DNA of 45,095 bases from a virus: the IMG/VR virus record IMGVR_UViG_3300037349_000286, positions 1 through 45,095 of that record; one strand, 5' to 3'. A program made the position numbers and the translations under genes. Below, piece by piece: positions 1,163-37,720 of this stretch. Every line of letters begins with the position of its first letter. The stretch's first letter is position 1. The notes below the pieces were generated by a model. The model saw only the letters and a program-made list of their open reading frames with translations. It was not told the origin of the DNA and made no database searches.

Positions 1163-1682
1163 GGGCTACGCCCGCGACAAAGACGATTTCTTCCCGACGC
1201 CAGATGAATGCACCCTCGCGCTCCTGCGGGCCGAAAAAGAGTGCATGCCAGTCGAGATATGGGAGCCGGCATGCGGCGAGGGGGCGATTTGCAAAATGAT
1301 GCCAGCCCGTATGTGGATCGCGACCGATCTTGTCGCCCGCGGATACGGGCAAAGCGGCGTTGATTTCTTGATGGAGCGCAAAAAGCTGGCCGATGCGATC
1401 ATAACCAATCCGCCATTCAAGAACCTCACCGCCTTCATAGACAAGGCGATCGACCTCGACGTTTCATACATCGCGATGTTCTTTCGCGTGACGTATCTCT
1501 GTACCGGCGCGTGGCAGAGGATTTGCGAGAAGCGCGCGCCAGCGAGGATTTATACGCTGTCATGGCGCCCGGATATTTTCGGTATCGGGACGCCTGACCA
1601 GAGGTGCCTTTTCATATGGGCCGTCTGGGATAAGCGATACGAGGGTGAAACGATATACCGGACTCTCAGACGCCCTAAGTAA
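1143..1682 (+). CDS. Phage DNA adenine methyltransferase-like protein
   Basis: A 179-residue class I SAM-dependent methyltransferase-like protein. FFPTPDE near residue 16 is typical of phage adenine methylases. Motif I, WEPACGEG, is at about 40-47 and binds SAM; an acidic turn (ATDL, about 60-63) follows, and the catalytic motif NPPF is at 89-92. The order (motif I then IV) fits gamma-type enzymes. It is short and I see no target-recognition domain, so specificity cannot be read. The start is GTG at 1143, with a second GTG at 1149 possible. It ends the rightward block and its stop overlaps the stop of the convergent endolysin gene. Likely role: modification of phage DNA against host restriction. 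Confidence 0.7.
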   Translation: MRVGKTEGYARDKDDFFPTPDECTLALLRAEKECMPVEIWEPACGEGAICKMMPARMWIATDLVARGYGQSGVDFLMERKKLADAIITNPPFKNLTAFIDKAIDLDVSYIAMFFRVTYLCTGAWQRICEKRAPARIYTLSWRPDIFGIGTPDQRCLFIWAVWDKRYEGETIYRTLRRPK

Positions 1683-2151
1683 CCGTCCCACCGGCCGCCA
1701 CGTAGGCCGCCTGTAGCCGCGCGAGCCTCTGCTGGGGCTGCCCAGCGAGCGAACCCGGGAGACTAGCCCACTCCGGCGCGCACAGGGCGACCGCCTGGGT
1801 GAAGTTCCCTGCCTCGACAAATGGCATCGCACGACGCCCCGCGATCAGCTTGACCGCCATCGCGTCCTGCGTCGCCGGCTCGAAGTCTGTGTAGCCGTAC
1901 TGCTGGCACAGCCCGACGAAGGTCGGGTGGATGATCTGGTATCTGCCGCAGGCGGTACTGTCGAGCGCCTGATTAAGGATATCCGGGTGCGTCGCGTAGC
2001 TGGGAAAGGTCAGCGGGTTGTCGGGCGTGGCACCTACGAGCGCGGCGTAACCGTCATCCGTCAGGGGCAGGAGGTCGGGCCCGATCTCACTCCATGCGAT
2101 GCAATCAAGGAAGGCAGCCATATTGGCCGAGAGCCCGGTCGCGCGCGGCAT
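1675..2151 (-). CDS. Endolysin, lambda R-like lytic transglycosylase
   Basis: A 158-residue match in pattern to the lambda R endolysin family (GH104 transglycosylase), which cuts peptidoglycan at the end of infection. It has AFLDCIAWSE with the expected catalytic Glu22, TGYDV-like DDGYAALVG, a TACGRYQII segment, the DF.P..QDA motif, and WASLPGS...AGGTV at the C terminus. No signal peptide is seen, so release probably depends on a holin. It is the last gene of the long leftward block. The start overlaps the stop of the upstream gene (TAATG), so the two are coupled. Confidence 0.9.
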   Translation of the reverse strand: MPRATGLSANMAAFLDCIAWSEIGPDLLPLTDDGYAALVGATPDNPLTFPSYATHPDILNQALDSTACGRYQIIHPTFVGLCQQYGYTDFEPATQDAMAVKLIAGRRAMPFVEAGNFTQAVALCAPEWASLPGSLAGQPQQRLARLQAAYVAAGGTVT

Positions 2152-2354
2152 TAGTTCAAACTCACGTTCAGGATCAGTCTGCGAAATGCTCCATCACGGT
2201 CACAAACGGCAACGAACGAATCTCGCCTCTTGCAATGATATTTGTGCATCTCCGGCCCAATGTAAACCTCAAGTACGAAAGCGTCCGGGTGCATGGTAAC
2301 AAGCTGTTGATAGAGGTAAAACTGCTTTTCGAGGTCTTTCTCCTCCTCGGTCAT
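2151..2354 (-). CDS. Small lysis-region protein (67 aa)
   Basis: Not recognised. I chose ATG at 2354 because it makes an ATGA overlap with the upstream gene; an in-frame GTG at 2369 is less likely. The N-terminal half is an acidic helix (TEEEKDLEKQFYLYQQL). The C-terminal half is mixed, with KYHCKRRDSFVAVC and hydrophobic beta-like segments. No membrane helix. It lies between a membrane peptide and the endolysin, so a lysis or packaging-end role is possible, but this rests on context only. Confidence 0.6.
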   Translation of the reverse strand: MTEEEKDLEKQFYLYQQLVTMHPDAFVLEVYIGPEMHKYHCKRRDSFVAVCDRDGAFRRLILNVSLN

Positions 2355-2521
2355 GATGGCCCGTGCCACGGAAGCGGAATGCCCATGGGATCGGAATAGA
2401 GCGTTCTATATTCGGGAGGGTAGTAAGGCAGAAACTTGACCAGAAACAGAGTCATCGCCCTCAAGACCAGCAGGCATTTAAGGAACATTTTCAGCAGATC
2501 GAGTTTTGTAGCGGGTTCCAT
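2351..2521 (-). CDS. Small membrane protein of the lysis cassette (56 aa)
   Basis: A clear ribosome site (AAGGAGG, 5 bases before ATG) precedes this short frame. Residues about 9-32 are hydrophobic (LLKMFLKCLLVLRAMTLFLV), followed by a Pro/Tyr-rich tail (KFLPYYPPEY). One membrane helix with a short tail is expected. It is nested between the lipase-like gene and the 67-residue gene with an ATGA overlap. A holin, antiholin or spanin-like part is possible. No lipobox is seen. Confidence 0.6.
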   Translation of the reverse strand: MEPATKLDLLKMFLKCLLVLRAMTLFLVKFLPYYPPEYRTLYSDPMGIPLPWHGPS

Positions 2522-2532
2522 TTATACCTCCT

Positions 2533-3171
2533 TTATGCGGCGGACAAATTTTTGACGCCCGCAGCGTAGAGCGCGATGTTGTGCCACGCCACTGGATCAT
2601 CGCCATTTACGGGCGACTCGTTCAGAAATATGAACGGCGCGGGCTCGATGTAAGGGAAAAGCGGGAGGACGGTCAAAGGAACGTCCGGGACAGGATCATC
2701 GCCGTTGCGATAGGATTCTATTTCCGTATCCGAGAGAATATCTTTCAGCTTGCTAAAGCCCGGGCGCGGCGACCCAAACACGGTGACTTTGGCGACCGGG
2801 ATTTTCTTGACCGCGCACAGCCCCGCGAAGATATACGCGCGCGCGGCGCCCAGGCTGTGGCCAGTCACAACCAGCGGCTGTACGGTTTTTTGGATAATCG
2901 AAGCGAAGGCGTTGTCCATGCCTTCCGCGAATCCCCGCTCGATACCGCCGAGCAGTGGGTGGTCGATAGGGAAAGCCTTGAAGTCGCGGAACCAGTCTTC
3001 CAGGGAGTCGGAACCCCGGAACACAATCACGTCATATCCGGGAAAGCGTTTCAGCGCCGCGTAGATGCCGCCGTTCATTCCGGGCACCCACATCTCATCC
3101 CAAACGAAAGCATCTCCGTATGACGCGGCGCATAAATCCACAAGCACGGAATCAGGTGGAAGTGTTCCCAC
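2533..3171 (-). CDS. Class-3-lipase-like alpha/beta hydrolase
   Basis: A 212-residue protein with the Lipase_3 pattern. YDVIVFRGS near residue 46 forms the early strand and oxyanion region. The nucleophile elbow GHSLGAA has Ser106. FGSPRPG is at about 132-138. A DDPVPDVP segment gives the likely catalytic Asp (158 or 159), and WHN gives His197. The full triad is therefore present. GTG at 3171 is the start, with GGAG 8 bases upstream; the gene overlaps a 32-residue frame. It lies in the lysis cassette upstream of the endolysin, so attack on envelope lipids during lysis is a reasonable guess, by analogy with esterases such as mycobacteriophage LysB. No signal peptide is seen. Substrate unknown. 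Confidence 0.8.
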   Translation of the reverse strand: MGTLPPDSVLVDLCAASYGDAFVWDEMWVPGMNGGIYAALKRFPGYDVIVFRGSDSLEDWFRDFKAFPIDHPLLGGIERGFAEGMDNAFASIIQKTVQPLVVTGHSLGAARAYIFAGLCAVKKIPVAKVTVFGSPRPGFSKLKDILSDTEIESYRNGDDPVPDVPLTVLPLFPYIEPAPFIFLNESPVNGDDPVAWHNIALYAAGVKNLSAA

Positions 3172-3250
3172 GCAGCTTGCTCCATATCGATTTCACCGCG
3201 CGGATCGTGGCGAAGATCGGAATCGAAACCGAAAAGGCCGGGATTTTCAT
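3152..3250 (-). CDS. Tiny amphipathic peptide (32 aa)
   Basis: A 32-codon frame whose ATG overlaps the stop of the preceding gene as TAATG, and whose end overlaps the lipase-like gene by 20 bases. The product begins with a hydrophobic stretch (IPAFSVSIPIFATI) followed by a basic tail (RAVKSIWSKLR). This could be membrane-active or simply act to couple translation into the lipase gene. Supported by overlap pattern and composition only. Confidence 0.4.
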   Translation of the reverse strand: MKIPAFSVSIPIFATIRAVKSIWSKLRGNTST

Positions 3251-3600
3251 TATCCCGCCAGATTGGCCGTGGCAGCCTGAGCCACCAGAGAAGGCGCCAG
3301 CGTGTCGATCAGCGCCTTGATGGAGGTCGCGGCGTCTTTGGCCGCGGCGGCTTCCATGTTCGGCAGCGCCGCTGGAACGGCGGCGTAGAACGCGAGACTC
3401 TGCGCGACAACGTTATCAGGGGCCGGATTGGAAATGATGCTGGTCAGGTAGCTGTCGCCAACCGGCTGCAAGACGCCAAGTTCGTCTCTTACGACGCTGG
3501 CGAAAAGGCCGTTGAGGGCGGAGGTGACGAGGGATTGAACGCTCGGTGCGGGCGTTGCGGGGGCGGCAACTGTTGAGGCTGCGGTGTCTGTGCTTGTCAT
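3250..3600 (-). CDS. Ala-rich hypothetical protein (116 aa)
   Basis: Not recognised. A good ribosome site (AGGAG) precedes ATG at 3600. The first 20 residues are Thr/Ala/Pro-rich and probably disordered; the rest is predicted helical with many Ala and Leu and no charged core, for example YLTSIISNPAPDNVVAQSL. No signal peptide or membrane helix is obvious. It sits between the two-helix holin candidate and the lipase-like gene; its role is unknown. Confidence 0.65.
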   Translation of the reverse strand: MTSTDTAASTVAAPATPAPSVQSLVTSALNGLFASVVRDELGVLQPVGDSYLTSIISNPAPDNVVAQSLAFYAAVPAALPNMEAAAAKDAATSIKALIDTLAPSLVAQAATANLAG

Positions 3601-3610
3601 GATCGATCTC

Positions 3611-3865
3611 CTAAGTTTTGGGGGTGAGGTATTTCTGCGTCAGCAAAGATATCACGATATGGCCGACCATGAAAAGCATAGAAACGGCCATTGAGAAAAT
3701 GACGGTCAGGGCGTCCTCGAGCGATTGCGAGGTGATTCCATTGGCGGGACTTGCGCCGATGGGATGATAGGCAAGCCAGATCACGGCAAGCGCGGCGCCC
3801 GCCGCCTGCCCCGATACCGAGGTCGCCATAAGGGCACCCGTGCCGGGGGCCTGGAAGTCGCTCAT
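3611..3865 (-). CDS. Holin candidate, two membrane helices (84 aa)
   Basis: The protein has two hydrophobic segments, about residues 17-34 (VSGQAAGAALAVIWLAYHP) and 53-76 (VIFSMAVSMLFMVGHIVISL), separated by a polar loop, with a short charged C terminus. Small size, two membrane helices and position just upstream of the lipase and endolysin fit a class II holin-type protein that permeabilises the inner membrane at lysis. It starts by ATGA overlap with the upstream coiled-coil membrane protein, so the pair may act as holin and regulator. No sequence family was recognised. Confidence 0.6.
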   Translation of the reverse strand: MSDFQAPGTGALMATSVSGQAAGAALAVIWLAYHPIGASPANGITSQSLEDALTVIFSMAVSMLFMVGHIVISLLTQKYLTPKT

Positions 3866-4920: not shown

Positions 4921-7692
4921 CTAGCAGTGAGTTACGATTCCGTTCGTGATGACAAAAGTTATCGTGGGTACACCCGAACAAGAAACACCCGGAGCATTTG
5001 TGCCGATGGCAAAACTTCCGGCGCTGACGGTGCCGATGGCCTGTAAGGGATATTGCGGTGCCGTCGTGCCGATGCCGATATTGCCCAATAATAGGGTGCC
5101 GTTGTTTGGATTTACCGAGGATGCCCCAAGTCCCACCACATTCGCGTTTATGCGAGAAAAAGCGGCATCTATATTGAGCGTTCCGCCATTGATGAACCCG
5201 ATTGCGCCGACCGTCGCCACGCCAGATGAAAATGTATTGATATACGGCCCATCACAATCGTTGAAATGCCCAAAGGTTCCAAAGTTAGTTAAACAAATGG
5301 CTTCGTTGCTCCCCGGTTCGTCGATGTGAATACCACCGCCGGAACTGAACGCTGATGCACCGTCTATTAGGATCGAGGCGGCGCTAGAGGCGGTTCCGAC
5401 GATTGTATTCCCAGAAGTATCCACTGAAAATTGGCTTACGCCTGCCTTCGTTAAATTTACGATATTCCCCGTCGTGGCATCGACATTTAATTCTCCACTC
5501 GGCGATGCCGTCCCGATCCCAACACCCCCGGTCGTATAATATATATTTGAGCCGCTCGTTGTCCACTGGCTACTCCCGCCTCCGCCGCTGCTGGTTGAGA
5601 CCGCCACGCCCTGCACATAAAGTGCTTGTGCATTTAATGATCCAGCCCCCTCATATCCGCCAGTTGGAGAACCAATTTCAGCGCCTTGCGTCCCTATCGC
5701 CATAGCTGCTGTTGGCGTTGTTCCGGTACTTATTTTAACTAGACCAGCCGCATTAACAGCCGCTACATTTAATCCGGGGTCAAGCGTATAGAGGTAGGTG
5801 TCATCAGGATTCATAAAGGGCGCGGTTGAACCTATGGATCCATTTTTCCCAAAATCTGCATAATGCGCCGAGGCCGTCATGTCATTGCCGCCGACGATAT
5901 AATCTGCTGAGTTCTGCGTACCAACAGCCGTATTTTGCAGGATCACTTGATAGAAGTTATTTATATTTCCGGTGATCTGAGCGCCCGTCGTATTGGCCAC
6001 ATCGCTGAACGCTTGGGTACCGATTGTGAGCGGAGAATTTGGCCTCGCAGTCCCAATCCCGACATTGCCGCTGACGATCAATCCGCCCGCCGAGCCGCCA
6101 TACTGATCGGGATAGCCGATGCTCGCGGCACCGTTGACTTCCAGCATGTTGGAAGCCGAGGTGGTTGCGGTGCCGATGCCGATGGTGGCGGCAAGCAAAG
6201 TGCCGGTCGCGCCGCCGGCATTAGTACCGACCTGGAGAACACCATTGCCAAAACGGCTCAGCTTGACGTCGATTGTATTTTGTACATTGGCGACATTAGC
6301 CCACCCAATCGTCATATTGCTGCCGACCGCGAACAGGGTGCTTGTCAGCTCGGCCTCATTTCCACCCGAACTTCCGATGACATCAAACGTATAATTGCCG
6401 GCATTAAAATAATAGCCGTTCGAACCATCCGATTGGATGAGGTAATTGCTGGCGCTCGGCGCCGGGCCGTTGAGCAGCCAGAGGGTCGGGTAAGACGTGC
6501 CGCTGGCCACGCCCTCACCGACCGCGAAAGCGGTAGCGCTTCCCGCCTGCAAATCCATCAGCAGCGAATTGGCTTTGCTCGATGTGTCGGTGATGTTCTC
6601 GAAGATCGGCGCGTCGAACGTGGTACTGCCGTTGTTCCAAGTCTGCGCGATGTTGAGCACGGGCGTACTTGTGGTAATCGTGCCGCTCCGCACGTCGAGC
6701 GTGGCCTGCGGCGTCGCCGTACCGATCCCAACATTCCCCTGCACGATCATGCCATTCGCGGGCGGCGCCATTCCCGCATACCCCGTGCCGATGGTCACGC
6801 CGTTCGTCGCGGTGCCGATGCCGAGAATGCTGGTGCCGGAGACCGCCGTCCCAGCGCTGGCGTAGAAGGCGCTCTGGTTAAGGGTGCCGGAATTGACCGT
6901 TCCGCTTCCCGATCCGGAAACTGTCAAAACGCCATTCGTGCATGTAGCGCCCGAACCGCATTCCAGAATGCCGTAGGCCGTGCTCGATCCGAGCGGAAGA
7001 TAGGCTGTTCCGATTGCCGTCCCTTTCCATGTGCCAGTGCCGATGGTTCCTACGGTCGTAAGCGATGATGTGACCACGTTCGAGGCCAGCGTGGTGCCGG
7101 TGATCCCCGAAGCCGGAGTCGTGTTCGCGGTGCCGACTGTCAGGCCCGTTGCCGCGATGCTTGAGAAGGCCGAAGTGCCTTCTGCTATGACGACATTCCC
7201 GCTTGTCAGGGAGGACGTGCCGATGCCTCCCTGCGCCACATTCAACGGGCTTGTAATGCCATATCCGGCCAGCGTGGTCGGGGTTGAGGTGATGCTCGAC
7301 CACGCCGGAGTGATCGTCACGACGCCGGCCGCCGTTATCAGGCCCTTGCCGTTGACCGTGAATGTCGGGGCTTGTGTGGCGCTCCCAAAACTTCCGATGT
7401 TGCTGTTGACCGCCGCCAGCGTAGAGACGTTGCTGGCGGTGCTGATCGAGATGTCCCCGGTGATGGCCGGGCGCGAGACGGTCACGATGCCGGCGGAAGA
7501 ACTGACGGTGATCGTGCCATCGCTGTTAGTGACAGAAAGCGTGGGCGCGCCGCCCCCGTCCTTGACCGCGAAATTGTTCTGAAACACCGGCACGTCGCCA
7601 GGCGTGACGCTGCCGATCACGGTCAGCCCGGGATTGCCAGCGAAGGCGGGCGCGCACAGGAGCGCCAAGAGGAGGGGAATGATCCTACGCAT
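4921..7692 (-). CDS. Large fibre-like protein with signal peptide (923 aa)
   Basis: A long Gly/Thr/Ser-rich protein with repeated (V/N)GIGTA.P motifs and short beta repeats, as in trimeric phage tail fibres and adhesin stalks. The middle has many copies, such as GNVGIGTARP and TGGVGIGTASP. Unusually, residues 1-18 form a textbook Sec signal peptide: basic MRR, a Leu-rich core, then APAFA before Gly19. The C-terminal region has Cys (GVSCSGVP) and ends in Cys923, which could form a disulfide in the periplasm. A central segment (TGGYEGAGSLNAQALYVQG) is closely similar to one in the 975-residue neighbour, so the two are paralogues. Either a fibre that is exported, or a secreted surface protein of infected cells. 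Confidence 0.75.
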   Translation of the reverse strand: MRRIIPLLLALLCAPAFAGNPGLTVIGSVTPGDVPVFQNNFAVKDGGGAPTLSVTNSDGTITVSSSAGIVTVSRPAITGDISISTASNVSTLAAVNSNIGSFGSATQAPTFTVNGKGLITAAGVVTITPAWSSITSTPTTLAGYGITSPLNVAQGGIGTSSLTSGNVVIAEGTSAFSSIAATGLTVGTANTTPASGITGTTLASNVVTSSLTTVGTIGTGTWKGTAIGTAYLPLGSSTAYGILECGSGATCTNGVLTVSGSGSGTVNSGTLNQSAFYASAGTAVSGTSILGIGTATNGVTIGTGYAGMAPPANGMIVQGNVGIGTATPQATLDVRSGTITTSTPVLNIAQTWNNGSTTFDAPIFENITDTSSKANSLLMDLQAGSATAFAVGEGVASGTSYPTLWLLNGPAPSASNYLIQSDGSNGYYFNAGNYTFDVIGSSGGNEAELTSTLFAVGSNMTIGWANVANVQNTIDVKLSRFGNGVLQVGTNAGGATGTLLAATIGIGTATTSASNMLEVNGAASIGYPDQYGGSAGGLIVSGNVGIGTARPNSPLTIGTQAFSDVANTTGAQITGNINNFYQVILQNTAVGTQNSADYIVGGNDMTASAHYADFGKNGSIGSTAPFMNPDDTYLYTLDPGLNVAAVNAAGLVKISTGTTPTAAMAIGTQGAEIGSPTGGYEGAGSLNAQALYVQGVAVSTSSGGGGSSQWTTSGSNIYYTTGGVGIGTASPSGELNVDATTGNIVNLTKAGVSQFSVDTSGNTIVGTASSAASILIDGASAFSSGGGIHIDEPGSNEAICLTNFGTFGHFNDCDGPYINTFSSGVATVGAIGFINGGTLNIDAAFSRINANVVGLGASSVNPNNGTLLLGNIGIGTTAPQYPLQAIGTVSAGSFAIGTNAPGVSCSGVPTITFVITNGIVTHC

Positions 7693-8167
7693 ACTTGATC
7701 GTCACCGTCGTATCAGCGGCACTCCCAACGACTTGCAGCGGCCCCGAGGGGATGCGCCGGTCGTATGTCTTGGTGCCATAGGGGATAAGGAGAAAGGTTC
7801 CGGGGTTCGCCTGACCATCCGTAAAGCCAGGGGTCGATCCATCGAAGGTGAAGCCGACGGAGTTTCCATTGTTGCTCGTGTTCTCCATATCGACCCAGAG
7901 CGTTGCGGCGCCGGACTCGATGGCCTCGACCACCTCAGTCCCGATCGTGGCGCTGGCGTCGATCTCGGTGATGCTCACCGCCTCGCGCGTCTGCGAATTG
8001 CCGGCGGCATCGGTCTTCTGGTAGTTGCCGGGCGTGGTGGGGTCAGCGTTGGTGATGACCTGGCGCTTGACGCTGCCGGCAGAGGTCATGACCGTATTGT
8101 TATCGATCAGGGCTTGGACAGGCCCCACGACTTGAGGGATTTGGACTTCTGATGGCGTGTTCGGCAT
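7685..8167 (-). CDS. Hypothetical structural protein (160 aa)
   Basis: The product lacks a signal peptide, unlike several neighbours. It begins MPNTPSEVQIPQVVGPVQAL and contains mixed polar beta segments (STPGFTDGQANPGTFLLIPYG, then YDRRIPSGPLQVVGSAADT). The end, TVTIKYA, is typical of a beta sandwich. It overlaps the 923-residue gene by 8 bases. A similar layout is common for small head or tail decoration proteins, but I cannot name a family. Confidence 0.6.
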   Translation of the reverse strand: MPNTPSEVQIPQVVGPVQALIDNNTVMTSAGSVKRQVITNADPTTPGNYQKTDAAGNSQTREAVSITEIDASATIGTEVVEAIESGAATLWVDMENTSNNGNSVGFTFDGSTPGFTDGQANPGTFLLIPYGTKTYDRRIPSGPLQVVGSAADTTVTIKYA

Positions 8168-8198
8168 TTCATGGTGTCCAGCGTTTTGAAAGAATCGC

Positions 8199-8336
8199 TT
8201 AAGGTGTCATCTGCTCGATCACAATTTTACCATTTGCGCCTGCACCGCCATTGGCGGCACCACCGGCGCCAGATGAACCACCAGCACCACTGCCCCACGC
8301 CGCACCGCATACATTCCAATGTCCCGATCCGACCAG
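8199..8336 (-). pseudogene. Gly-rich fibre C-terminal remnant or frameshift product
   Basis: In the -1 frame relative to the 67-residue gene, a 45-codon open stretch encodes WNVCGAAWGSGAGGSSGAGG followed by ANGGAGANGKIVIEQMTP and a stop. This is the usual end of glycine-rich tail-fibre tips (GA.G..G.IVI) and resembles the end of the 975-residue protein. It has no ATG, GTG or TTG start before the upstream stop at 8337-8339. It may be a fragment left by recombination, or be fused by frameshift to the preceding reading frame. Confidence 0.4.
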
Positions 8337-8422
8337 TCATGCATGTCCGGTTCGTCATAAAACCGGCGGCGCTGGTCGGTCTCATTGAACGGGTTGAACC
8401 GTCTGGCTTGCTGATCGCTCAT
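8219..8422 (-). CDS. Small protein with conserved-looking N-terminus (67 aa)
   Basis: Begins by ATGA overlap with the upstream gene. The first 36 residues are rich in Arg, Asp and aromatic residues (FNPFNETDQRRRFYDEPDMH, then DWSDRDIG) and look like real protein. After about residue 37 the frame turns into a low-quality Val/Pro-rich tail, while the -1 frame there encodes a Gly-rich fibre-type end. A frameshift, natural or from sequencing, would join the good N-terminus to the good C-terminus. As written, the 67-residue product is the conservative call. Confidence 0.45.
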   Translation of the reverse strand: MSDQQARRFNPFNETDQRRRFYDEPDMHDWSDRDIGMYAVRRGAVVLVVHLAPVVPPMAVQAQMVKL

Positions 8423-8832
8423 TGCGCCGGACTCGCTGTGTTGAGAGGGACTGAAGCGGGCGTAGTAGCAATCGCGCTGAGACTGGATGACACGGCGGCG
8501 GCTTGCGGCGTCCCCGTCATGGCCGTATTCACATCAGAAGCCTGCAAGACACCTTGCTGTACGAGAAGCGTTGTTAGGGCAACGACGGGATCAACGGGAG
8601 GTGCAGGCGGTGATGAAAAGATGCCATTGACGAACCTACCGCCAATTTGTGCTGTTGTTCCGGCTGCCGTAGCCGTTATCAAGCTTTGACCGATTGGCAA
8701 AGCGATAGATGAGATACCATCCCACATAATGACATTTATGACGTTTCCATTCTGGTCAATTATTGCATAATTCGCTGCCGCCGCGAAAGCGGGGAAGGCA
8801 AAAAGCAGGAAGAGAAGAACGAGCTTTTTCAT
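8419..8832 (-). CDS. Exported fibre-associated protein (137 aa)
   Basis: ATG at 8832 overlaps the 975-residue gene (ATGA). Residues 1-20 are a signal peptide: MKK, a Leu/Phe core (LVLLFLLFAF), then PAFAAAA. The mature part starts NYAIIDQNGNVINVIMWDG, the pattern seen at the start of many short fibre-associated or assembly-like phage proteins. The C-terminal half is Ala/Thr/Ser-rich, including PPAPPVDPVVALTTLL. Export to the periplasm is predicted; a role with the large fibre-like protein is inferred from coupling. Confidence 0.7.
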   Translation of the reverse strand: MKKLVLLFLLFAFPAFAAAANYAIIDQNGNVINVIMWDGISSIALPIGQSLITATAAGTTAQIGGRFVNGIFSSPPAPPVDPVVALTTLLVQQGVLQASDVNTAMTGTPQAAAVSSSLSAIATTPASVPLNTASPAQ

Positions 8833-11756
8833 TCTGTGTACGTTCCCGAGGACGTGAATTTTATGATCGTGTTCGCGCCGCTGGTCGTGATCGTGGGCGA
8901 ACCAGTGGTGGTGCCGGAATAAAATACGGTTGGAATGCTGAGAATGACAACACCGGAAGCGCCGGACGCACCCGCCGCCGCGACCGACCCGGTATACCCG
9001 TCGCCGCCGCCGCCATTTCCAGTATTGGCCGTAGGGGTTGTGGCGGGGACGTTCCAAGCGCCGGTGCTGCCGCCGGCGCACCCAGCAGTTCCTGGGCCAC
9101 CGCTGTTGTTGCCGCCGCCGCCGCCGCCGCACCCGTAGGTAAGGGACGATCCGGTGATGCTGTTGGCCGTGCCGTTCCCTCCCGCGCCGCCAGTGTTTGT
9201 CGTTCCTGTGATGCCCGCCCCGGCGTTACCTGCGCCGCCGCCGCCGTTGTTGCCGCTGGTCGATGGCCCACCGCTGAAATTCGTGCCGACACCGCCAGCG
9301 CCACCTACGCCGCCGCCGCCGCCGTTATAGCCAGCCGAACCCGCCGCATTCGCGCCCCCGCCGCCGACCGCGACCGTCGAGATTAAACCTTGCGGGCCAT
9401 TGATCGAAGAAACGCCGCCGTTTGCGCCTTGGGTCGTCGAATTAAACGTGCCGCCCGCCGCGACGGTAACGGTTAGGGTTTGGCCCGGCACGAAGTATGT
9501 GACGCCCGGAAGAACTTCGCCGCCCGCGCCCGCACCACTTACGCTCTGTCCGCCAACCACACCACCGCCCGCCGCGCCACCGCCGACAAGAAGATAGCTG
9601 CCGCCATAAATCGAAGGGGCAACGCCTTGGATGGTCGTGGCATTCGTCCACATAGCCATCTGGCCGTTGGTGGGCGTGCCGGTGTTGACGACGTTGCCAG
9701 AACCAGATCCGACCGCCGAACCATTGACATAAAGCGCGGTCGCGTTGAGCGTTCCAGCCCCCTGGTTGCCGCCCGTTGCTGTGCCCACGACCACACCGCC
9801 AGCGGTGCCAACTGCCACATAGGGAGTACTTCCAATCTGAAATATATTAGTTGCTGCTGGCGAGGCGGTTCCAATCCCGACATTGCCGCTCACGATCAGA
9901 CCATTTGTCGGCGCGGCTACGTCGGTCGCGGCATAGGTGCCGACCGTCACGCCACCATTGACGGCGAGTTTCGCGTTCGTCCCGAGCGTGGCCGTAGCGA
10001 TGCCGACGCTCGTATTCGCGACAATGGCGGTGCCGGTTACGGCCGCAGCCGCCGTACCCCCGAGCGCGGGTGGAGAGGCAAAGTAATTCGTGAACCCTGT
10101 TCCGCTGACCGTGGACGAAGCCGCTAACGTCGTGGCGGAAATAGCGGCGGGGGCAGTTGTCCCGATAGGCGGCGGGGACGCCAGATAATTGGTAAAGCCC
10201 GAGCCGCTGACGGCGCCGGATGCCGAGAGCGTGGTGAAGGCGCCCGTTCCGGCCGTGGTCGGGCCGACGTTTACCGCGTTTAGATTTGTGACGGTACCGC
10301 CGAGGTAAGTGACGGTCGAGCCGAAGGTGATGCCGCCGTTCCCGGCCATGTAGGCGGTGCCTATCGCCGTGCCCTGCCAAGTGCCGGAAGAAATCGTCCC
10401 CACGCCCGTGAGCGACGATCCCGTGACGCCAGAGGCTAGGGTCGATCCGGTCAAGCCAGACGCAGGAACCGCCGCTGCGGTGATCGACGTATTGCACCCG
10501 GGCCCGGTATTCGTCGTCCATATCAGCGCGTCTCCGGCGGCGGAACAGCCGCTGACCGATATGGCCGCGACGTTCGCCGTGCCGCTTCCGGTATTGCCGA
10601 GGATCGTATTCGTCGCAATCTGCGCGACATTGCCAAGCGTAATGCCGTTGGTCGTGCTTTGGAAGGCATAGGTGCCGGCGCCGGTTCGCGTCAGGAATCC
10701 GGTCGATGCGAAGCCCGTTATATTGTCGAGTGTCGTGCCGCTGGCCGAGGACGCGGCCGTGCCGCCATTTGCAACCCGTAAAACGCCCGTCATGTAAGCC
10801 GTGCCGATGGGGGTGCCCTGCCACGTTCCCGCCAGCACCGTGCCGCTTGAGTTGACCTCGAACGCGTTGCTGCCGACCGTGAACAGGGCGCCGGGGTTCG
10901 TTGTTCCGATCCCGACGTCGCCGCCAGCGTCTTCGAGGATCAGCGGGTTCGTGCCGCCCGCGACCCCAACCGACATGTACGCATTCGCCGCCGTCGCGTT
11001 GTAGACCCAGTTTACGTAGCCGTGGTAGCCGGACGCTTGGCCGATATCGACGCCAGAGTTGGCGACCGCGTTCGAGACCGCGATCCGGCTCCCGGTGAAG
11101 GTACCAAGCAGGCCGCCGCCGATCTCTAGGGCGTTCTCGGGTGCGGCGGTTCCGATCCCGAGGCCGGTGCCGTTGACGGTGACCTCCTGTACCCCCGCAG
11201 CCGCTACCGCGACCGTGGCGGCCGCCGGCGAGAACAGGCCCGTGGTCGCATCGCCGATGCGCGCGGGATTCGAGTACGCCGCCGCCGTGCCGAGTTCGAC
11301 GCTTGCGGGAAGCGCGCCGGCGCTGATGGTGATAGTGCCGGGGCCGTTGATGATGGCGACGCCGGTGCCTGCCGTAATGGTGTTGGAAACCAAGCCGCCG
11401 GTCGCGGTGCTGCCGATCATGATCTGGCCGTTGGTGAAAAGGCCGCCGATCTGATTGGGGTTCAGAAATCCCGCAATTTGCGAGAAATAAGGCTGTGTGC
11501 AAACACCAACACCCTGCGGGTTGATCGAATTAACCCACGCGCTCGAACCGCAGTTAGCGCCCCATCCTGCCGTCAGGCCATAGGACACGCCGCCGCGCGT
11601 GAATACGCCCTTATCGCCGGTGGAGATATTGACGCTGCCGGATGCGGGGATAGGCCATGCGCTGATCGGTTTGCCGCCGATTTGCGCTTCCTGCGCGAAA
11701 GCGCCGCCGGATACCAGCAGGGCGAGGAGCGCGAGGCTGGCTAGGATCTTTTTCAT
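8829..11756 (-). CDS. Large fibre-like protein with signal peptide (975 aa)
   Basis: Residues 1-21 are a Sec signal peptide (MKKILA, hydrophobic core, GGAFA before Gln22). Next comes a domain with ISAWPIPASG, G.N.GSSAWVNSINPQG and a Cys pair that could bond (WGANCGSS, GVGVCTQP). Then a long stalk carries VGIGTA.P and GTAYM-type repeats. The tail end is an extreme Gly-rich domain (about residues 750-930, runs such as GCGGGGGGNN, with Cys), then ASGVVILSIP and a short beta tip. Gly-rich tips of this kind bind receptors in tail fibres. Shares several segments with the 923-residue gene. It appears to be an exported fibre paralogue; no transmembrane anchor is visible. Confidence 0.75.
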   Translation of the reverse strand: MKKILASLALLALLVSGGAFAQEAQIGGKPISAWPIPASGSVNISTGDKGVFTRGGVSYGLTAGWGANCGSSAWVNSINPQGVGVCTQPYFSQIAGFLNPNQIGGLFTNGQIMIGSTATGGLVSNTITAGTGVAIINGPGTITISAGALPASVELGTAAAYSNPARIGDATTGLFSPAAATVAVAAAGVQEVTVNGTGLGIGTAAPENALEIGGGLLGTFTGSRIAVSNAVANSGVDIGQASGYHGYVNWVYNATAANAYMSVGVAGGTNPLILEDAGGDVGIGTTNPGALFTVGSNAFEVNSSGTVLAGTWQGTPIGTAYMTGVLRVANGGTAASSASGTTLDNITGFASTGFLTRTGAGTYAFQSTTNGITLGNVAQIATNTILGNTGSGTANVAAISVSGCSAAGDALIWTTNTGPGCNTSITAAAVPASGLTGSTLASGVTGSSLTGVGTISSGTWQGTAIGTAYMAGNGGITFGSTVTYLGGTVTNLNAVNVGPTTAGTGAFTTLSASGAVSGSGFTNYLASPPPIGTTAPAAISATTLAASSTVSGTGFTNYFASPPALGGTAAAAVTGTAIVANTSVGIATATLGTNAKLAVNGGVTVGTYAATDVAAPTNGLIVSGNVGIGTASPAATNIFQIGSTPYVAVGTAGGVVVGTATGGNQGAGTLNATALYVNGSAVGSGSGNVVNTGTPTNGQMAMWTNATTIQGVAPSIYGGSYLLVGGGAAGGGVVGGQSVSGAGAGGEVLPGVTYFVPGQTLTVTVAAGGTFNSTTQGANGGVSSINGPQGLISTVAVGGGGANAAGSAGYNGGGGGVGGAGGVGTNFSGGPSTSGNNGGGGAGNAGAGITGTTNTGGAGGNGTANSITGSSLTYGCGGGGGGNNSGGPGTAGCAGGSTGAWNVPATTPTANTGNGGGGDGYTGSVAAAGASGASGVVILSIPTVFYSGTTTGSPTITTSGANTIIKFTSSGTYTE

Positions 11757-11763
11757 GCGCCCC

Positions 11764-12189
11764 CTATTGATAGCCGATGACGCCGGAGATGCCGGTGGAC
11801 GGGGCGGAGGAGCCCGTGGGGGTGGTCGTGGCGGCCGCCGCGAGGCCGTTAAAGAACGTCACGGCGGCGCTGTCGGGCAGGGCGAGAGCCGTCACACTGC
11901 TGGAACCCAGCGGGATGACCATCTGCGGGACAGACGTGCCGAGCGCGACGCTCGTGGAGGTGCCGTTGAAAAGCTGGACGTATTCGACGGTGTTGTTGGA
12001 GTTGTAGAAATTGTAGCTCGTTATGTTCCGCTGCCCTATGGGCCCAATCTGCACCGGGGAATTGGTCAGGAGGGCATTGCCGCCGGTGGATGTCCCTATC
12101 GCCGCGTAGTTCTGGGAATCGATGCCCGCAGCGTGGGCGTCCCACATCCACCCGAGCGACAGGAAGAAAAAGAGAAGGGTTAGGCGCAT
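11764..12189 (-). CDS. Exported small protein of fibre cluster (141 aa)
   Basis: A signal peptide is clear: MRLTLLFFFLSLGW, then a short polar segment and AHAA before Gly22 or so. The mature part is beta-like: IDSQNYAAIGTSTGGNALL, ITSYNFYNSNNTVEYVQLFN, ALGTSVPQMVIPLG. The end is Ala/Thr/Pro-rich (PTGSSAPSTGISG). No family recognised. It lies 7 bases before the 975-residue gene and 8 bases after the 166-residue exported gene, so the set is probably co-expressed. Confidence 0.65.
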   Translation of the reverse strand: MRLTLLFFFLSLGWMWDAHAAGIDSQNYAAIGTSTGGNALLTNSPVQIGPIGQRNITSYNFYNSNNTVEYVQLFNGTSTSVALGTSVPQMVIPLGSSSVTALALPDSAAVTFFNGLAAAATTTPTGSSAPSTGISGVIGYQ

Positions 12190-12197
12190 TGGGCCTC

Positions 12198-12698
12198 CTA
12201 CGGGCAGGTAGCTTTCTGATAAAAATTCCCCGCGCTATCCCGGCACACATAACCCGCACCAGCCGTGGTTCCGATCGGCGCGCTCGTTCCGAGACCGACG
12301 ACCTGAAATACAGATGCAGCCGCAGTCGTACCGATGCCGATATTTCCGGTGGCGAGAAGGCCCCCTGTGATGGCCGGCGCAGTCAGCGTTTTGTTGGTCA
12401 GCGTCTGGACGTCAGTACGCCCCACAAGCAAACCGCTGGTCGGGAAAACCTGCGCGACGCCGCCGATCTCGAAGGTCCCGGTGAAGTTGTTGGTCCCGGT
12501 CCAGGTATTGGCGGTCGCTGCGTTCGGGATGACCGTGGTGGTGCCCTGACCGTTGATGCCGATGGCGTAAAGATTACCGGTCGCGGTGTCCCAAACGTTG
12601 ACCGATTCGGTCGCCGGGAGCGTCTCGTAGGTGTCGGCAAAGGCCGCCGGTGCGAGGAGGAGCAGGACGGCGAGCCAGAGGCTGAGGATATTTTTCAT
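12198..12698 (-). CDS. Exported fibre-like protein with Cys pair (166 aa)
   Basis: First gene of the run of exported proteins. Residues 1-21 are a signal peptide (MKNILS, Leu-rich core, APAAFA before Asp22). The mature part has NVWDTATGNLYAIGINGQG, beta repeats with LTNKTLTAPAITGG, the GNIGIGTTA motif of fibre stalks, and a final domain with two Cys (GYVCRDSAGNFYQKATC). This Cys ending resembles that of the 923-residue protein. A good AAGGAGAA site precedes the start, and a possible promoter lies at 12724-12751. Confidence 0.7.
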   Translation of the reverse strand: MKNILSLWLAVLLLLAPAAFADTYETLPATESVNVWDTATGNLYAIGINGQGTTTVIPNAATANTWTGTNNFTGTFEIGGVAQVFPTSGLLVGRTDVQTLTNKTLTAPAITGGLLATGNIGIGTTAAASVFQVVGLGTSAPIGTTAGAGYVCRDSAGNFYQKATCP

Positions 12699-12766: not shown

Positions 12767-13897
12767 TTAAAAGTTAATACGGAATCCGTAAGCCCACAGT
12801 GCGGCGCCGGAGGCCGACGAGACATAATAAATGTTCGTGCTCTCGAGTTGAAACTCGAACAGGGAACGGCCGGAGATGCTCACCGCCCCGTCGACGCAGG
12901 CTGGATAAGGCGGCGTCGTGCCCTCGTTCGTGCCGAAGCCGCTGTTCGGGCCGCAGACCGCGTAGGAAGACATGCCGCCGTTATAGGAGCCCTGATGGTA
13001 GCCCTTGAAGGTCGCCGCATTGGGGGGAGTGTAGGGGCTGATCGAGATGGTAATCGGCGTAAGCGCGCCCGTATTGCTCCAGGTGCCTTGCTGGAGTGAC
13101 GAGACGAGGAGCGGAGTCGTATATTGGAAATCGTCGTCGTGCTGGACGAAGCCGACGATGTGCTTGCTGGCGTCGGTCAGGACCACGCCGATCAGGGTCG
13201 CGGTATAGCCGCTCGGCACAGTCGGCGCCGAGAAGCTGGCGGACATGAGGATATTTTGCGCGGCGGTCGCCTGATTATAAATCGCGTAGACCGCGTACCA
13301 GGTCGACGCCGCCAGCGAACCGGTGTCGAGGCCGCCGGCGCCGCTGACCGCGGTATTGAGAGTCTGGTTGTAGTTAGAGAGCGGAGTCGTCGCTCCGACG
13401 GTCAGATAATTCGCCGTCCAGGTCGCGGTCGTATTGGAGACCGATACGCCCTTGAGGTTCGAGAAGACGCCGGGCTGAACCCCTACCGATTCGGTGCTCC
13501 CGAGCGGGAGCCAGAATGCGCCATCCGCGCCGGGCGTGGTGGTGTTGGCGGCGGCGGTCGAATACCAATTCTGGATACCGCTGCCAGCGTTGTAAGAAAC
13601 AACCGCGCCGAGATTGTAGGAATAGGGATTTACGCCGCCGTTCATCGTCGTCGTGATAAAGGGCGGCGCACCGTTCTGCTGGAGGTACTGGATCGCGGTC
13701 GTGATGTCCTTTAGTACCTGATTCGATTGGGCGAGCGGGACAGGGAGGTATGCGGGATTGGTGGGGGCGAGTTCGTAGGGCGTCGTCCAGCCTTGGGCGT
13801 AGGAGACGCTGCCGTCGCTGGCTGGCGCGTCGGGTATGGTCGTGACCGTCCCCGATGTGGCCCAGATCGTGTCGAAATAGCCGCTTACTGGGCACAT
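12767..13897 (-). CDS. Tail fibre/collar-type structural protein (376 aa)
   Basis: ATG at 13897 with GGAGG 8 bases upstream; an in-frame TTG at 13912 is less likely. No signal peptide. The N-terminal part has TIWATSGTVTTIPDAPASDG and GWTTPYELAP with a tail-fibre-like tone, then FWLPLGSTESVG. The remainder is beta-rich with aromatic residues (AYGFRINF at the end). It is directly downstream of the DUF2612 baseplate gene, the usual place of the first virion fibre, and so is a candidate for the actual cytoplasmically assembled fibre. Confidence 0.65.
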   Translation of the reverse strand: MCPVSGYFDTIWATSGTVTTIPDAPASDGSVSYAQGWTTPYELAPTNPAYLPVPLAQSNQVLKDITTAIQYLQQNGAPPFITTTMNGGVNPYSYNLGAVVSYNAGSGIQNWYSTAAANTTTPGADGAFWLPLGSTESVGVQPGVFSNLKGVSVSNTTATWTANYLTVGATTPLSNYNQTLNTAVSGAGGLDTGSLAASTWYAVYAIYNQATAAQNILMSASFSAPTVPSGYTATLIGVVLTDASKHIVGFVQHDDDFQYTTPLLVSSLQQGTWSNTGALTPITISISPYTPPNAATFKGYHQGSYNGGMSSYAVCGPNSGFGTNEGTTPPYPACVDGAVSISGRSLFEFQLESTNIYYVSSASGAALWAYGFRINF

Positions 13898-13901
13898 GCT
13901 C

Positions 13902-14648
13902 TTAGCCTCCAAAATTTCCTTGACCGAATCCTAATCTTAGCGGCCCGAAGCCGAAGGAATTGATCGTGCCATCGCGATAGGTACTTTTTACCCCAGCCGG
14001 GCGCGCAAGTAAATCGAAGTTATTGAAGAGATATTGTAGCTCGAAGGTTAAAGGAAACAGGAACACGTAAATTTGCGTCATGTCGTGATTGTCGACGAGG
14101 AAAACCTTCCCGTATGCAGAGAAGACATAATTCATGAAGCGGTTGATCTCCGGCACCGTCCCGGACGAGCAGAGTTGAAAGTAGCGGAGCAAAAGAGCGA
14201 TTCGCTGAGTCGTGGCCGAGAAGTTAACCGTGACGCCGTTGAGGTTGCCAAAATTGGAATTCCCAAAATTACCATTGTCCGGGCCGAATCCGAACGATAG
14301 GACGCCCGATGGAGTCGCCCCTTCATTCACGAACAGCGGGAGATCAAGGATTATGCTCCACACGTCGAGACCAAACTCGTTGGCGGTCATGAGCGTAAAG
14401 ACGTTGGCGATCCAGTCGTTCCAGAAATCCTCGTAGTTCGCGTCGAGCCAGGTCTGCTTCGAGTTGACGAGCGACTGGAGGTTCGGCGCGTTGTTGTACT
14501 GCCAAAGAATCGCGCGCGTGACGTTAATGCCGAGATGGAGCTTTTGGATATCGGCATTCGATGTGACGATATCGCCAGCAATCCCGATGCCGTCCTCGCC
14601 GGTAATGATCGTGCCGTCCTCGCCGGCTATAAGCACCGGGACGGCCAT
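13902..14648 (-). CDS. DUF2612-type baseplate/tail protein
   Basis: A 248-residue protein with the pattern of DUF2612 phage tail proteins: WLDANYEDFWNDWIANVF.L, then G.DVWS.IL..P, F.FG......FG..NFG repeats, and the family end YLFNNFDLLARPAGVKSTY, followed by FGFGPLRLGFGQGNFGG. Such proteins follow the J-like baseplate gene in Bcep-type and related phages and probably join baseplate and fibres (comparable in position to P2 gpI). ATG at 14648 overlaps the J-like stop by one base. Confidence 0.8.
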   Translation of the reverse strand: MAVPVLIAGEDGTIITGEDGIGIAGDIVTSNADIQKLHLGINVTRAILWQYNNAPNLQSLVNSKQTWLDANYEDFWNDWIANVFTLMTANEFGLDVWSIILDLPLFVNEGATPSGVLSFGFGPDNGNFGNSNFGNLNGVTVNFSATTQRIALLLRYFQLCSSGTVPEINRFMNYVFSAYGKVFLVDNHDMTQIYVFLFPLTFELQYLFNNFDLLARPAGVKSTYRDGTINSFGFGPLRLGFGQGNFGG

Positions 14649-16240
14649 TAAACGTTCACCGTAATTCCGCCTGCAATAACATAGGCTTGCTGATTGAGGC
14701 CTATAGCGATGGGCGTGCTCGCGTAACTGGGCGATTCGCTGTTGATCGCGATCTCGACCGAGGAGACGTAACACCCCGGGTTCTCGATGGCGATGGCGCC
14801 GGCGATCTCGAACGGCGAGACCGGTTGCCCCACCCGAAAGCCCTGAAGCACCGAGGTATTGCCCGCCGGGTCGGTGACCGTCCCGGCCTGATAGTCCAGA
14901 ATCGCCTGTACGACCTGATCTGTCGTAGCACCGGTAACCACGACCTCGATCAGAATCTCAAGCTCGGTGGGCGTGTCGTAGAGGACGGTGTACGACTGCC
15001 CGGACGCCGGCTCGATCACTGGCGTCGCGACGGCACCGTTCCACGCGCAACCGCTCGACTTGTTCTCGAGCAGCGCGGCGGCGACGTCGGTCGCGGTGCC
15101 GCCAGCGACGCAGGCGTAGACTGAGCTCGCAATCAGCGAGATGCCCTGATTCGAGCCGAGGATGCTCGTCCCCGAGGTATAGCCGGGATAGCGCGTCCAT
15201 GTGCTCGACTCGGCGGAATAAAGCCCGTTCTGCGACGCAGTCGTCTGGTTCTTCACGAGAATGATATTTCCCGCAGATAGGCCCGATCCCCAATCGCCGC
15301 CGCCCTGTGTGCCGAGGCCCGAGAGCGTGATATTCGCCGTCGTAGTAAACGCCGCGACGGGCCAAGGATTCGGAACCGGCAGAACCTGGTCGCTCTCGGC
15401 GAAGGCGACCGAGTCGGTGCCGATCACGATCGCCCCGTTCGTTCCGGTGCCGGAAGTCGTCGTCATGCCCCAGATCGTGCCGGACAGCGTCGTGCCGCCC
15501 GTGACCGAGATCAGCATCCCCTGAGGCACCGAATTGTAGTTTTCGAGGAACGAGAGGCTCGGGACCCCGGGCACCGCATAGAGCGCCGAGGTGATGGCTT
15601 CCGCGAGCGAGAGGCCTTGGAAGGCGAGGGTATTTTTGCGGTAGGCGCGGAACGCCTGGTCGCTCTGGGTCGTCGAGCCGAGCGTCGTGACGCTGGCGGG
15701 CGAGCCGCCCGTGTTGTTGGTGACGCTCTCCCACCCGAGGATCGCGGTGACGATCTCGTTGAGCGCGCCGTTCGCGCAGGGGATAGGCCCGTAGGCAACG
15801 GACTGGAACGTCGCGTAGACCGTGCCCCCGGACGGTATGGTGGTCGTCTGGGTGAGCTGGAAGAGGTCGCCCGCCTCGGTCTGGGCTTGGGCGCCGACGG
15901 GAAGGACGGTGCCAGCAACCCCGGCAATCGTGACGTTGGTGACGGCCGTCGGCTGCTGCACCTGCCGCTGGATGCCGGTCAGTTGCCCGATGGCGTCGAG
16001 GAAGACCCCGCCGGCGATGTTCGGGTTGATCTGATTCGCGAGCGCTGCGTTGTTATTGAGCATGGTATTCAGCGAAATCGTCTCGGTCGTCATGATGACC
16101 CCTTGCGGCGTGGCCGGATCGATCACGAGGTCGGCACCCAAGGCTTGAATCCACCAGCTCTGCACGGTCGCGAGAGTCGAGGACGTGTCGGCGATGATTA
16201 CGCCTTGGGGCGATAGGTATGCGTAACTCGCGGACGTCAT
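14648..16240 (-). CDS. Baseplate J-like protein
   Basis: A 530-residue J-like baseplate wedge. The N-terminal region has GADLVIDPATPQGVI and an NINPNIAGGVFLDAIGQL motif; the core has TVLPVGAQAQTEAGDLF and GWESVTNNTGGSPAS; the family end has GFRVGQPVSPFEIAGAI. Between residues about 270 and 370 there is an extra module (ANITLSGLG, then IILVKNQTTASQNGLY), the pattern of a separate beta domain found inserted in many phage tail proteins. It overlaps the gp25/W-like gene by 4 bases. Confidence 0.85.
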   Translation of the reverse strand: MTSASYAYLSPQGVIIADTSSTLATVQSWWIQALGADLVIDPATPQGVIMTTETISLNTMLNNNAALANQINPNIAGGVFLDAIGQLTGIQRQVQQPTAVTNVTIAGVAGTVLPVGAQAQTEAGDLFQLTQTTTIPSGGTVYATFQSVAYGPIPCANGALNEIVTAILGWESVTNNTGGSPASVTTLGSTTQSDQAFRAYRKNTLAFQGLSLAEAITSALYAVPGVPSLSFLENYNSVPQGMLISVTGGTTLSGTIWGMTTTSGTGTNGAIVIGTDSVAFAESDQVLPVPNPWPVAAFTTTANITLSGLGTQGGGDWGSGLSAGNIILVKNQTTASQNGLYSAESSTWTRYPGYTSGTSILGSNQGISLIASSVYACVAGGTATDVAAALLENKSSGCAWNGAVATPVIEPASGQSYTVLYDTPTELEILIEVVVTGATTDQVVQAILDYQAGTVTDPAGNTSVLQGFRVGQPVSPFEIAGAIAIENPGCYVSSVEIAINSESPSYASTPIAIGLNQQAYVIAGGITVNV

Positions 16241-19195: not shown

Positions 19196-19875
19196 TGGTT
19201 GAACCCCGCGCCGATGGTTTGTTGGGAGACCATGCTCTGTACGCCAGATATCTCTGGGGCTGAAGTCGAGAATGGCGACGACGAAGCAGGAAGCGCCGAC
19301 GTGCCGCCGATGGTCTGGACGCCGTTGAGCGTGTAGGCGGGCTGCTGCGGCGGGATGCTGCTCAGGTCTAAAGTGCCGTCCGGATTGGTAGCGTAATTCA
19401 CGGTATAGGCGTTTTGGTTGCCGAGGTTCTGCGTGTTAGCCTGCGTCGGGTCGGCCGGCGCGTAGCTGGTAACCGACGTGACGACCTGAACCTGCCGGAA
19501 GCGGATCGTCATGGGCAGCGCGTCGTATTTCTCGGGCGTCTCTTCGTGAGGTATCTCCGCGATGATCATATTCGGATAACTCGACGCCTTGGTCTGGACG
19601 GTGAGGAGTTCCGATTGCTGCCAGAGCTGCCATATCTCGGCATACAGATCGCGCGAGAATGGGGAAGGGAGGATCAGCTCCATCTGAAGTTCGACGGGAA
19701 GGATGACCTTGTAGTCCGAGACGATTTGCCCGGTCTCGAGCGGATGATCCATGAGGCGGGCGGAGGGCCTTGGAAAGGCGCGGACGGGGCGCGCCTCCGC
19801 AAACACTTGATTGAAGCTGTCATCGAACACGCCAACGATATCGAGCGGCGAACCGAAGGGGAGGATCGTGGGCAT
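19192..19875 (-). CDS. Dit-like tail/baseplate protein
   Basis: The first 150 residues have the pattern of Dit-like phage tail proteins that sit at the tube-baseplate junction: ARLMDHPLETGQIVSDYKVI, then LELPV-like VELQMELILPSPF, QLWQQSELLTVQTKASSYPN, IPHEETPEKYDALPMTIRFR. The C-terminal 75 residues are Gln/Pro/Ser/Thr-rich and likely flexible. It follows the tape measure gene with a one-base overlap, the normal place for this protein. Confidence 0.75.
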   Translation of the reverse strand: MPTILPFGSPLDIVGVFDDSFNQVFAEARPVRAFPRPSARLMDHPLETGQIVSDYKVILPVELQMELILPSPFSRDLYAEIWQLWQQSELLTVQTKASSYPNMIIAEIPHEETPEKYDALPMTIRFRQVQVVTSVTSYAPADPTQANTQNLGNQNAYTVNYATNPDGTLDLSSIPPQQPAYTLNGVQTIGGTSALPASSSPFSTSAPEISGVQSMVSQQTIGAGFNQ

Positions 19876-37484: not shown

Positions 37485-37720
37485 TTGCTTTTCTGCTTCG
37501 GGCAGGGGGTGAACTTGCGAGGAGGCGCAGTGCGGGACGAAGCGGCCCGATCGGCTAGGACGGGCGAAGATCCCCGGCTTTGCTCCAAGCGATGCACGAT
37601 CTCGCCTATAGTTGAGCGGTGATTTTTGGTCGATTCGTCCACCAGATATTGCCACAGATCGAGCGGGATTCGTATCGATCTTGTGACAAAATCATTGATT
37701 TCATTAGGGTTCTGGCTCAT
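37481..37720 (-). CDS. Ribbon-helix-helix (Arc/MetJ-like) regulator, late block
   Basis: A 79-residue protein. Residues 10-50 match an RHH fold: FVTRSIRIPLDLWQYLVDES, then STIGEIVHRLEQS. The N-terminal strand contacts operator DNA and dimers form by beta pairing. The tail is Ser/Arg/Lys-rich (SSRTAPPRKFTPCPKQKSK). It is the first leftward gene next to the 37744-37783 overlapping promoters, so autoregulation is likely. A second RHH gene stands in the same position at 43335-43505. It shares a GTGA overlap with the methyltransferase. Confidence 0.75.
   Translation of the reverse strand: MSQNPNEINDFVTRSIRIPLDLWQYLVDESTKNHRSTIGEIVHRLEQSRGSSPVLADRAASSRTAPPRKFTPCPKQKSK

Follow-up and report, generated by a model that had tools for sequence, protein, structure and literature searches.

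The general view of tailed phages is that their tail fibres are produced in the cytoplasm and fold there with the help of chaperones. Why, then, does a phage genome carry a whole cluster of fibre-like genes whose products begin as secreted proteins do? This question is raised by IMG/VR virus record IMGVR_UViG_3300037349_000286, the complete record of an uncultured virus, which was analysed over its full 45,095 bases (hereafter the window). Five genes located between positions 4921 and 12698 encode two very large fibres and three small proteins with predicted signal peptides (SPs), numbered SP proteins 1 to 5 in the table below. From their sequences and those of their relatives, Sec export of these proteins with oxidative folding, whatever their end use, is considered very probable. 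Moreover, they appear to belong to a widespread class of phage fibres and spikes with disulfide bonds, which has apparently not been described before.

Signal peptides were called with a custom heuristic predictor of Sec/signal peptidase I (SPI) substrates (not SignalP), based on a positive n-region, an uncharged hydrophobic core and an A-x-A-type cleavage site, together with a simple gene caller. A first-pass annotation of this DNA had ascribed a basic residue, a hydrophobic core and an A-x-A pattern to the five genes and had called for a SignalP-type check. It was borne out at all five N-termini, each of which shows the n-region, h-region and A-x-A c-region of Sec/SPI proteins and passes the heuristic predictor. 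Six of the 67 called window genes pass the test and five of them lie in the cluster (hypergeometric 4e-6), which amounts to 5/6 called cluster genes versus 1/61 elsewhere in the window. The background in control phage loci is about 1% (12 of 1,077 genes), and the cluster departs from it with a probability of 1e-9. Accidental SP-like N-termini or misannotated starts could be put forward, as the genome is GC-rich and the proteins are alanine-rich. Nevertheless, this low background, the absence of SPs from large control genes described below, the gathering of five SPs in one cluster and the recurrence of such proteins in dozens of unrelated phages make chance extremely improbable. In the same way, the cluster gene starts are backed by Shine-Dalgarno sequences or overlap the stop codon of the gene before, as for SP protein 4 (ATGA at 8832, its start being the ATG at 8832 and not 8829) and SP protein 5 (7692, within the end of gene 7685-8167).

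A lipobox with a Cys at position +1 is absent from all five proteins, in which this position is occupied by D, A, Q, A and G, and none was seen to contain a known outer-membrane or autotransporter domain, so that nothing points to the adhesins on the infected cell that had been suggested as one possible use. PHROG and Pfam searches of the five proteins detected no muralytic domain of the kind expected in SAR endolysins. Pfam also gave no match to the C-terminal peptidase S74 domain of secreted bacterial VGIGT fibre proteins nor to a known N-terminal virion-attachment domain, the place of which is occupied by the SP. The possible promoter proposed ahead of the first gene was not upheld: the site at 12751-12724, upstream of 12698, is within chance, with 9 promoter-like sites found in the region versus 5.6 +/- 2.3 expected.

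The mature parts of the two large fibres contain six cysteines each and that of SP protein 1 contains two, while SP proteins 2 and 4 have none; all 14 mature cysteines fall into seven close pairs, 6-18 residues apart. Cysteines near the ends and suited to disulfides had been claimed, of which the close pairing stood, whereas cysteines are present in three of the five proteins and do not all lie near the ends. An even Cys number was observed in 30 of 33 complete mature proteins carrying the Cys loop presented below (p 1.4e-6), compared with 216 of 503 other genes and 26 of 52 SP-less fibre-like genes (26 odd), a control set that includes a few SP fibres with starts called too short. According to PMC7678975, which cites Dutton and others 2008, the preference for an even Cys number is a known mark of disulfide-forming exported proteins. 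Since the cysteines are even and paired, an oxidising compartment is indicated for the mature part.

The 975-aa SP protein 3 shares with a podovirus fibre family the loop C-S-x4-A-L-x-W-x-T-x-T-G-x2-C. This loop was searched in IMG/VR as a DNA pattern, with a query devoid of any SP, and was matched by 65 viral stretches in addition to the window. Among the 52 distinct Cys-loop open reading frames (ORFs) with a complete 5' end, a strict SP test was passed by 39 and a relaxed version by a further 11, while L125 and L155, which passed neither, have SP-like starts by eye. When every Met among residues 1-150 was allowed as a start, the strict test was passed by 0/455 control genes of 250 aa or more versus 39/52 Cys-loop ORFs (Fisher 2e-47). 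As the set is defined by a motif of the class itself, these figures show the linkage of loop and SP and not the frequency of exported fibres. SP genes are also found among the neighbours, within four genes, of Cys-loop genes (37/331). The exact motif is present in one of the five window proteins, and the others are linked to the class by synteny, SP and paired cysteines. Finally, the pattern is absent from 385 alphaproteobacterial genomes and is therefore not a general bacterial motif there.

The best eight IMG/VR relatives of the 166-aa SP protein 1 are podovirus fibres (L002-L009), with 60-65% identity over about 52 residues. All 5'-complete members have an SP, some with long n-regions being missed by the strict test. 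The proteins that match less well (L010-L022) are fibres of the ordinary kind, devoid of an SP. SP protein 1 itself carries in its mature part the fibre modules NTWTGTNNFTG..LTNKTLTAPAITGG and GIGTT and gives a PHROG tail fibre match (1.6e-6). An alignment of the podovirus fibre family revealed 43% identity in the SP, 71-72% over residues 23-520 and 27% in the last 150 residues, with eight invariant cysteines in close pairs (93/109, 164/176, 295/312, 438/447). This is the layout of a fibre whose body is conserved and whose tip is exchanged. Moreover, the A-x-A/G cleavage motif followed by Q is kept while the SP sequence drifts.

It could be argued that the hydrophobic N-terminus stays uncleaved and serves to anchor the protein in the membrane, to attach it to the virion or to insert into a membrane, because cleavage is a prediction and hydrophobic stretches could by themselves act as anchors. 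We consider this improbable, as the A-x-A/G motifs persist despite SP drift and are often followed by Q, the short hydrophobic cores suit cleavage, and the even, paired mature cysteines point to an oxidising compartment. The view that these are exported products is thus strongly supported by the SPs, the even and close-paired cysteines and the family-wide link of SP and loop, to which the drift of SPs around a kept cleavage motif adds.

What would the exported parts do? The C-terminal half of one relative (P0001, residues 345-666) shares 40-49% identity with SP-less prophage fibres (L038, L039 and L040) that have the usual N-termini of virion fibres, and such tips likewise occur without an SP in the prophage fibres L038-L043. 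In parallel, the Cys-loop family has a tip of about 130 residues ending in ARRVR, which recurs in the SP-less fibre of Dickeya phage BF25/12, annotated in its record with a T7-tail domain, and, again SP-less, in Enterobacter phage Mulvp2. One N-module was found with at least three different tips, including the ARRVR type and a Gly-rich type. In an AlphaFold model of the SP fibre L175, the tip (residues about 135-261) is a beta sandwich with pLDDT mostly 73-93, and the shaft and Cys loop are below pLDDT 50. Among named viral structures, this tip fits best that of a tail fibre from a Klebsiella phage, at 1.9 angstrom over 140 columns, and its PDB matches are general jelly rolls that name no function. 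The shared C-terminal domains thus show the relatives to have receptor-binding tips like those of virion fibres.

Decoys, receptor blockers and fibres added outside had been proposed as uses besides adhesins. No single use stands out among them, and the shared receptor-binding tips would suit mounting from outside as well as proteins that bind receptors in free form. In the sequence of events that we propose, the five late-gene products, fibres and small accessory proteins alike, would be exported by the host Sec machinery and cleaved by signal peptidase I. They would then fold in the periplasm, where the close-paired cysteines would become disulfides, and the small SP partners suggest a joint move of fibres and their helpers into this compartment. 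When the holin opens the inner membrane at lysis, cytoplasmic virions would meet the periplasmic fibres, whose C-terminal tips would act as receptor-binding modules as on ordinary virion fibres. Actual export, disulfides, timing, receptor binding and the meeting with the virion at lysis are all predicted here from sequence. Attachment of the fibres to virions as a last assembly step, as extra receptor-binding fibres beside the cytoplasmically built product of 12767-13912, is given just short of an even chance. It is favoured by the fibre design, since a conserved N-module with a variable tip is normal in fibres, by the place of the genes in the structural block and by a 66-kb relative (L198-L201), in which three fibre-like genes carry SPs and no fibre without an SP was recognised. 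Late attachment would be feasible, because in mixed lysates of T4 complete particles that lack tail fibres take them up.

Alternatively, the proteins might be free receptor binders that, once folded in the periplasm, leave the cell when it lyses and never join virions. They would bind receptors on debris, on the envelope of the producing cell or on neighbours, thereby sparing the progeny wasted adsorption or blocking superinfecting phages, and free spike versions would degrade surface polysaccharide. In keeping with this idea, the SP replaces the virion anchor while the receptor-binding tip is kept, the SP genes adjoin the lysis genes, several phages including the window have another fibre without an SP, and a protein predicted to be exported has a pectate-lyase-like spike domain in Shewanella phage vB_Sb_QDWS (hereafter QDWS), L177, L146 and L148. 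Exported receptor blockers do exist, as exemplified by T5 Llp. Yet known blockers are small lipoproteins and not 900-residue fibres, the cost would be large (five genes, about 7 kb of a 45-kb genome), the relative G001 lacks another recognisable fibre and the strongly conserved N-module (72%) suggests docking on something. On balance, free proteins are regarded as rather unlikely.

The proposed sequence of events meets several objections of its own. To our knowledge, no tailed phage adds fibres made outside the cytoplasm, and no N-terminal sequencing, virion proteomics or localisation of SP fibres was found. The SPs are predicted by our own heuristic. A separate fibre or spike that lacks an SP is retained in the window, Burkholderia phage BcepC6B, Xanthomonas phage PBR31, G014 and G015, so that virions could do without the SP proteins as components. 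Two of the window's SP proteins are without Cys, hence disulfides would not be the reason for the export of every member. Among the differing N-modules of SP fibres, no common virion-attachment domain was found. The T7-tail anchor family gave no match in 20 related records, a result that carries no weight because the controls were silent as well, and PHROG 14370 gave none in four genomes, again with silent controls. The broader proposal, that many tailed phages of Gram-negative bacteria complete their receptor-binding apparatus outside the cytoplasm, with secreted fibres and tailspikes that undergo oxidation in the periplasm and reach the virions only once lysis has mixed the compartments, is put forward tentatively, with doubt outweighing belief.

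Cultured phages already carry such proteins, namely gp19 of BcepC6B, orf35 of PBR31 and a protein of QDWS. The first two, recorded as 'tail fiber protein' and 'putative structural protein', respectively, resemble the window proteins in SP, Cys loop and receptor-binding tip and have a conserved N-module. Their genes lie between those of a virion fibre or spike and those of holin, endolysin and spanin. On the contrary, one SP fibre was seen in each of these phages versus five SP genes in the window. The accessible text of the PBR31 paper (PMC10975493) mentions a signal peptide for gp40 only and not for orf35. Both BcepC6B and PBR31 encode integrases, which would suit lysogenic-conversion cargo, that is, secreted adhesin-like proteins serving the lysogen and not the lytic cycle. 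This is very improbable, because in the genomes read the genes share the strand of the virion genes and form part of the late block for structure and lysis, the window has no recognisable integrase and the loop is missing from the alphaproteobacterial genomes mentioned above.

The QDWS protein (687 aa, L202:11698-13758) combines an SP, the Cys loop and a pectate-lyase-like spike domain. QDWS is a myovirus in which the order baseplate J, fibre, SP protein, endolysin and lipase is nearly that of the window. Its tip is a right-handed beta-helix tailspike, unlike those of the window fibres. The QDWS record (OK094664.1) annotates an antisense and a truncated ORF at L202:11580-13761, where the 687-aa SP tailspike is encoded; it also carries a retron-type reverse transcriptase. 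In Pseudomonas phage Orisa01, a collagen-like protein with an SP-like start (MLKSIIGLMTLLPALTMA, then A) is encoded downstream of a GDSL lipase gene (L035:13563-14480) and is possibly another exported fibre of a cultured phage. A start resembling a Tat signal (MKRRSFLALAAALAATPSLRPVWA) was found at L023:13345-13767, and some phages may export folded proteins.

Ordinary fibres (T7 gp17, DUF2793 and Mtd/ZF40 types) share with the SP fibres the repeat shaft, the beta-sandwich or Gly-rich tip, the swapping of tips and the late structural locus. However, they begin with a virion-anchoring domain and no SP, and their cysteines are fewer and not even-numbered. T5 Llp, a small outer-membrane lipoprotein, is an exported phage receptor blocker and, like the SP fibres, a Sec-exported protein whose encounter with the receptor would be extracytoplasmic, but it is no fibre and the window SP proteins are without a lipobox. 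Tailed phages also use the host Sec machinery and cleavable SPs for exported endolysins and the antiholin RI (PMC6116005, PMC8385771), which are lysis proteins, unlike the window fibres. No published description of exported tail fibres was found in the open-access literature searched.

Proteins of this type are currently annotated as hypothetical, structural or tail fibre, or are missed, as in QDWS, and the combination of Cys loop and SP offers a simple signature for finding them. If true, Sec-routed fibres and spikes with disulfide loops would change the annotation and expression of receptor-binding proteins, as cytoplasmic expression would not form their disulfides. Such phages would possibly depend on host Sec and Dsb functions, and the question whether virions can receive fibres at lysis would become cleanly testable.

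The window virus is a contractile-tailed phage (myovirus), and its main features are collected in the following table.

Table. Features of the window, with N-termini up to the predicted cleavage site and the residue that follows it.
Feature	Position	Strand	Remarks
SP protein 1, 166 aa	12198-12698	-	SP encoded 12636-12698; MKNILSLWLAVLLLLAPAAFA, then D; C-terminal Cys pair 152/165
SP protein 2, 141 aa	11764-12189	-	SP encoded 12130-12189; MRLTLLFFFLSLGWMWDAHA, then A; no Cys
SP protein 3, 975-aa fibre	8829-11756	-	SP encoded 11694-11756; MKKILASLALLALLVSGGAFA, then Q; GIGT repeats; Cys pairs 69/86, 404/421, 876/893
Cys-loop motif	10494-10547	-	inside SP protein 3; marks predicted exported phage fibres
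SP protein 4, 137 aa	8419-8832	-	SP encoded 8782-8832; MKKLVLLFLLFAFPAFA, then A; no Cys
SP-less ORF within cluster	8219-8422
SP-less gene within cluster, 160 aa	7685-8167	-	end overlaps start of SP protein 5
SP protein 5, 923-aa fibre	4921-7692	-	SP encoded 7639-7692; MRRIIPLLLALLCAPAFA, then G; (V/I)GIGT repeats; Cys pairs 245/251, 800/813, 905/923
Presumed lysis region	1675-3865	-	downstream of SP cluster
Endolysin	1675-2151	-	presumed lysis region
Lipase, class 3	2533-3171	-	beside lysis genes
Small hydrophobic proteins	3250-3600 and 3611-3865	-	presumed lysis region
Ordinary SP-less virion tail fibre	12767-13912	-	Mtd second domain
DUF2612 baseplate-region protein	13902-14774	-	probe for syntenic relatives
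Baseplate J	14648-16240
Tape measure	19875-21353
Tail sheath	22335-23876
Portal	32939-34555
Terminase	34555-36012

In the first-pass annotation, two very large fibres with VGIGT repeats and Gly-rich tips had been described. Repeats and size were found in both, and the Gly-rich tip in SP protein 3, beginning at about residue 716, but not in SP protein 5. SP protein 2 had no match in PHROG and Pfam family searches and is probably a small accessory protein. The mature part of SP protein 4 (YAIIDQNGNVINVIMWDG) matches PHROG 14370 and is presumably akin to small tail-fibre-assembly-type proteins. DNA and tblastn searches with the large fibre and the mature small SP proteins of the window retrieved no relatives in cultured phages or IMG/VR. 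A start-less open stretch on the minus strand (8199-8336), which partly overlaps ORF 8219-8422 in another frame, reads ...GSGAGGSSGAGGAANGGAGANGKIVIEQMTP before its stop codon, a typical end of a Gly-rich fibre tip, and is probably the relic of a replaced tip.

Strand-wise, baseplate J is followed by DUF2612, the SP-less fibre, the five SP genes with two SP-less ORFs and the presumed lysis genes. The first 135 residues of the SP-less fibre are common to ZF40-type tail fibres. In a syntenic relative (L025), two SP genes occupy the equivalent place after an Mtd-type fibre. A lipase is annotated at the equivalent place in QDWS, and PBR31 has an SP esterase there. The closest cultured relatives of the portal are Pseudomonas phages of the F8/LMA2/NH-4 group (46%), and the first 25 kb of the window have no DNA-level match among cultured phages. 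A DNA methyltransferase fused with a ParB-like domain is encoded at 36288-37655 on the minus strand. Far from the structural block and on the opposite strand, a small gene (39408-39668, plus) has an SP-like start (MKSSFGILAFAAIALA, then GYGGC). Finally, SP genes were also observed beside capsid genes in soil podoviruses (L198:14728-17992, L190:18737-19135 and equivalents in L004 and L005), and head-associated proteins may be exported too, besides fibres.

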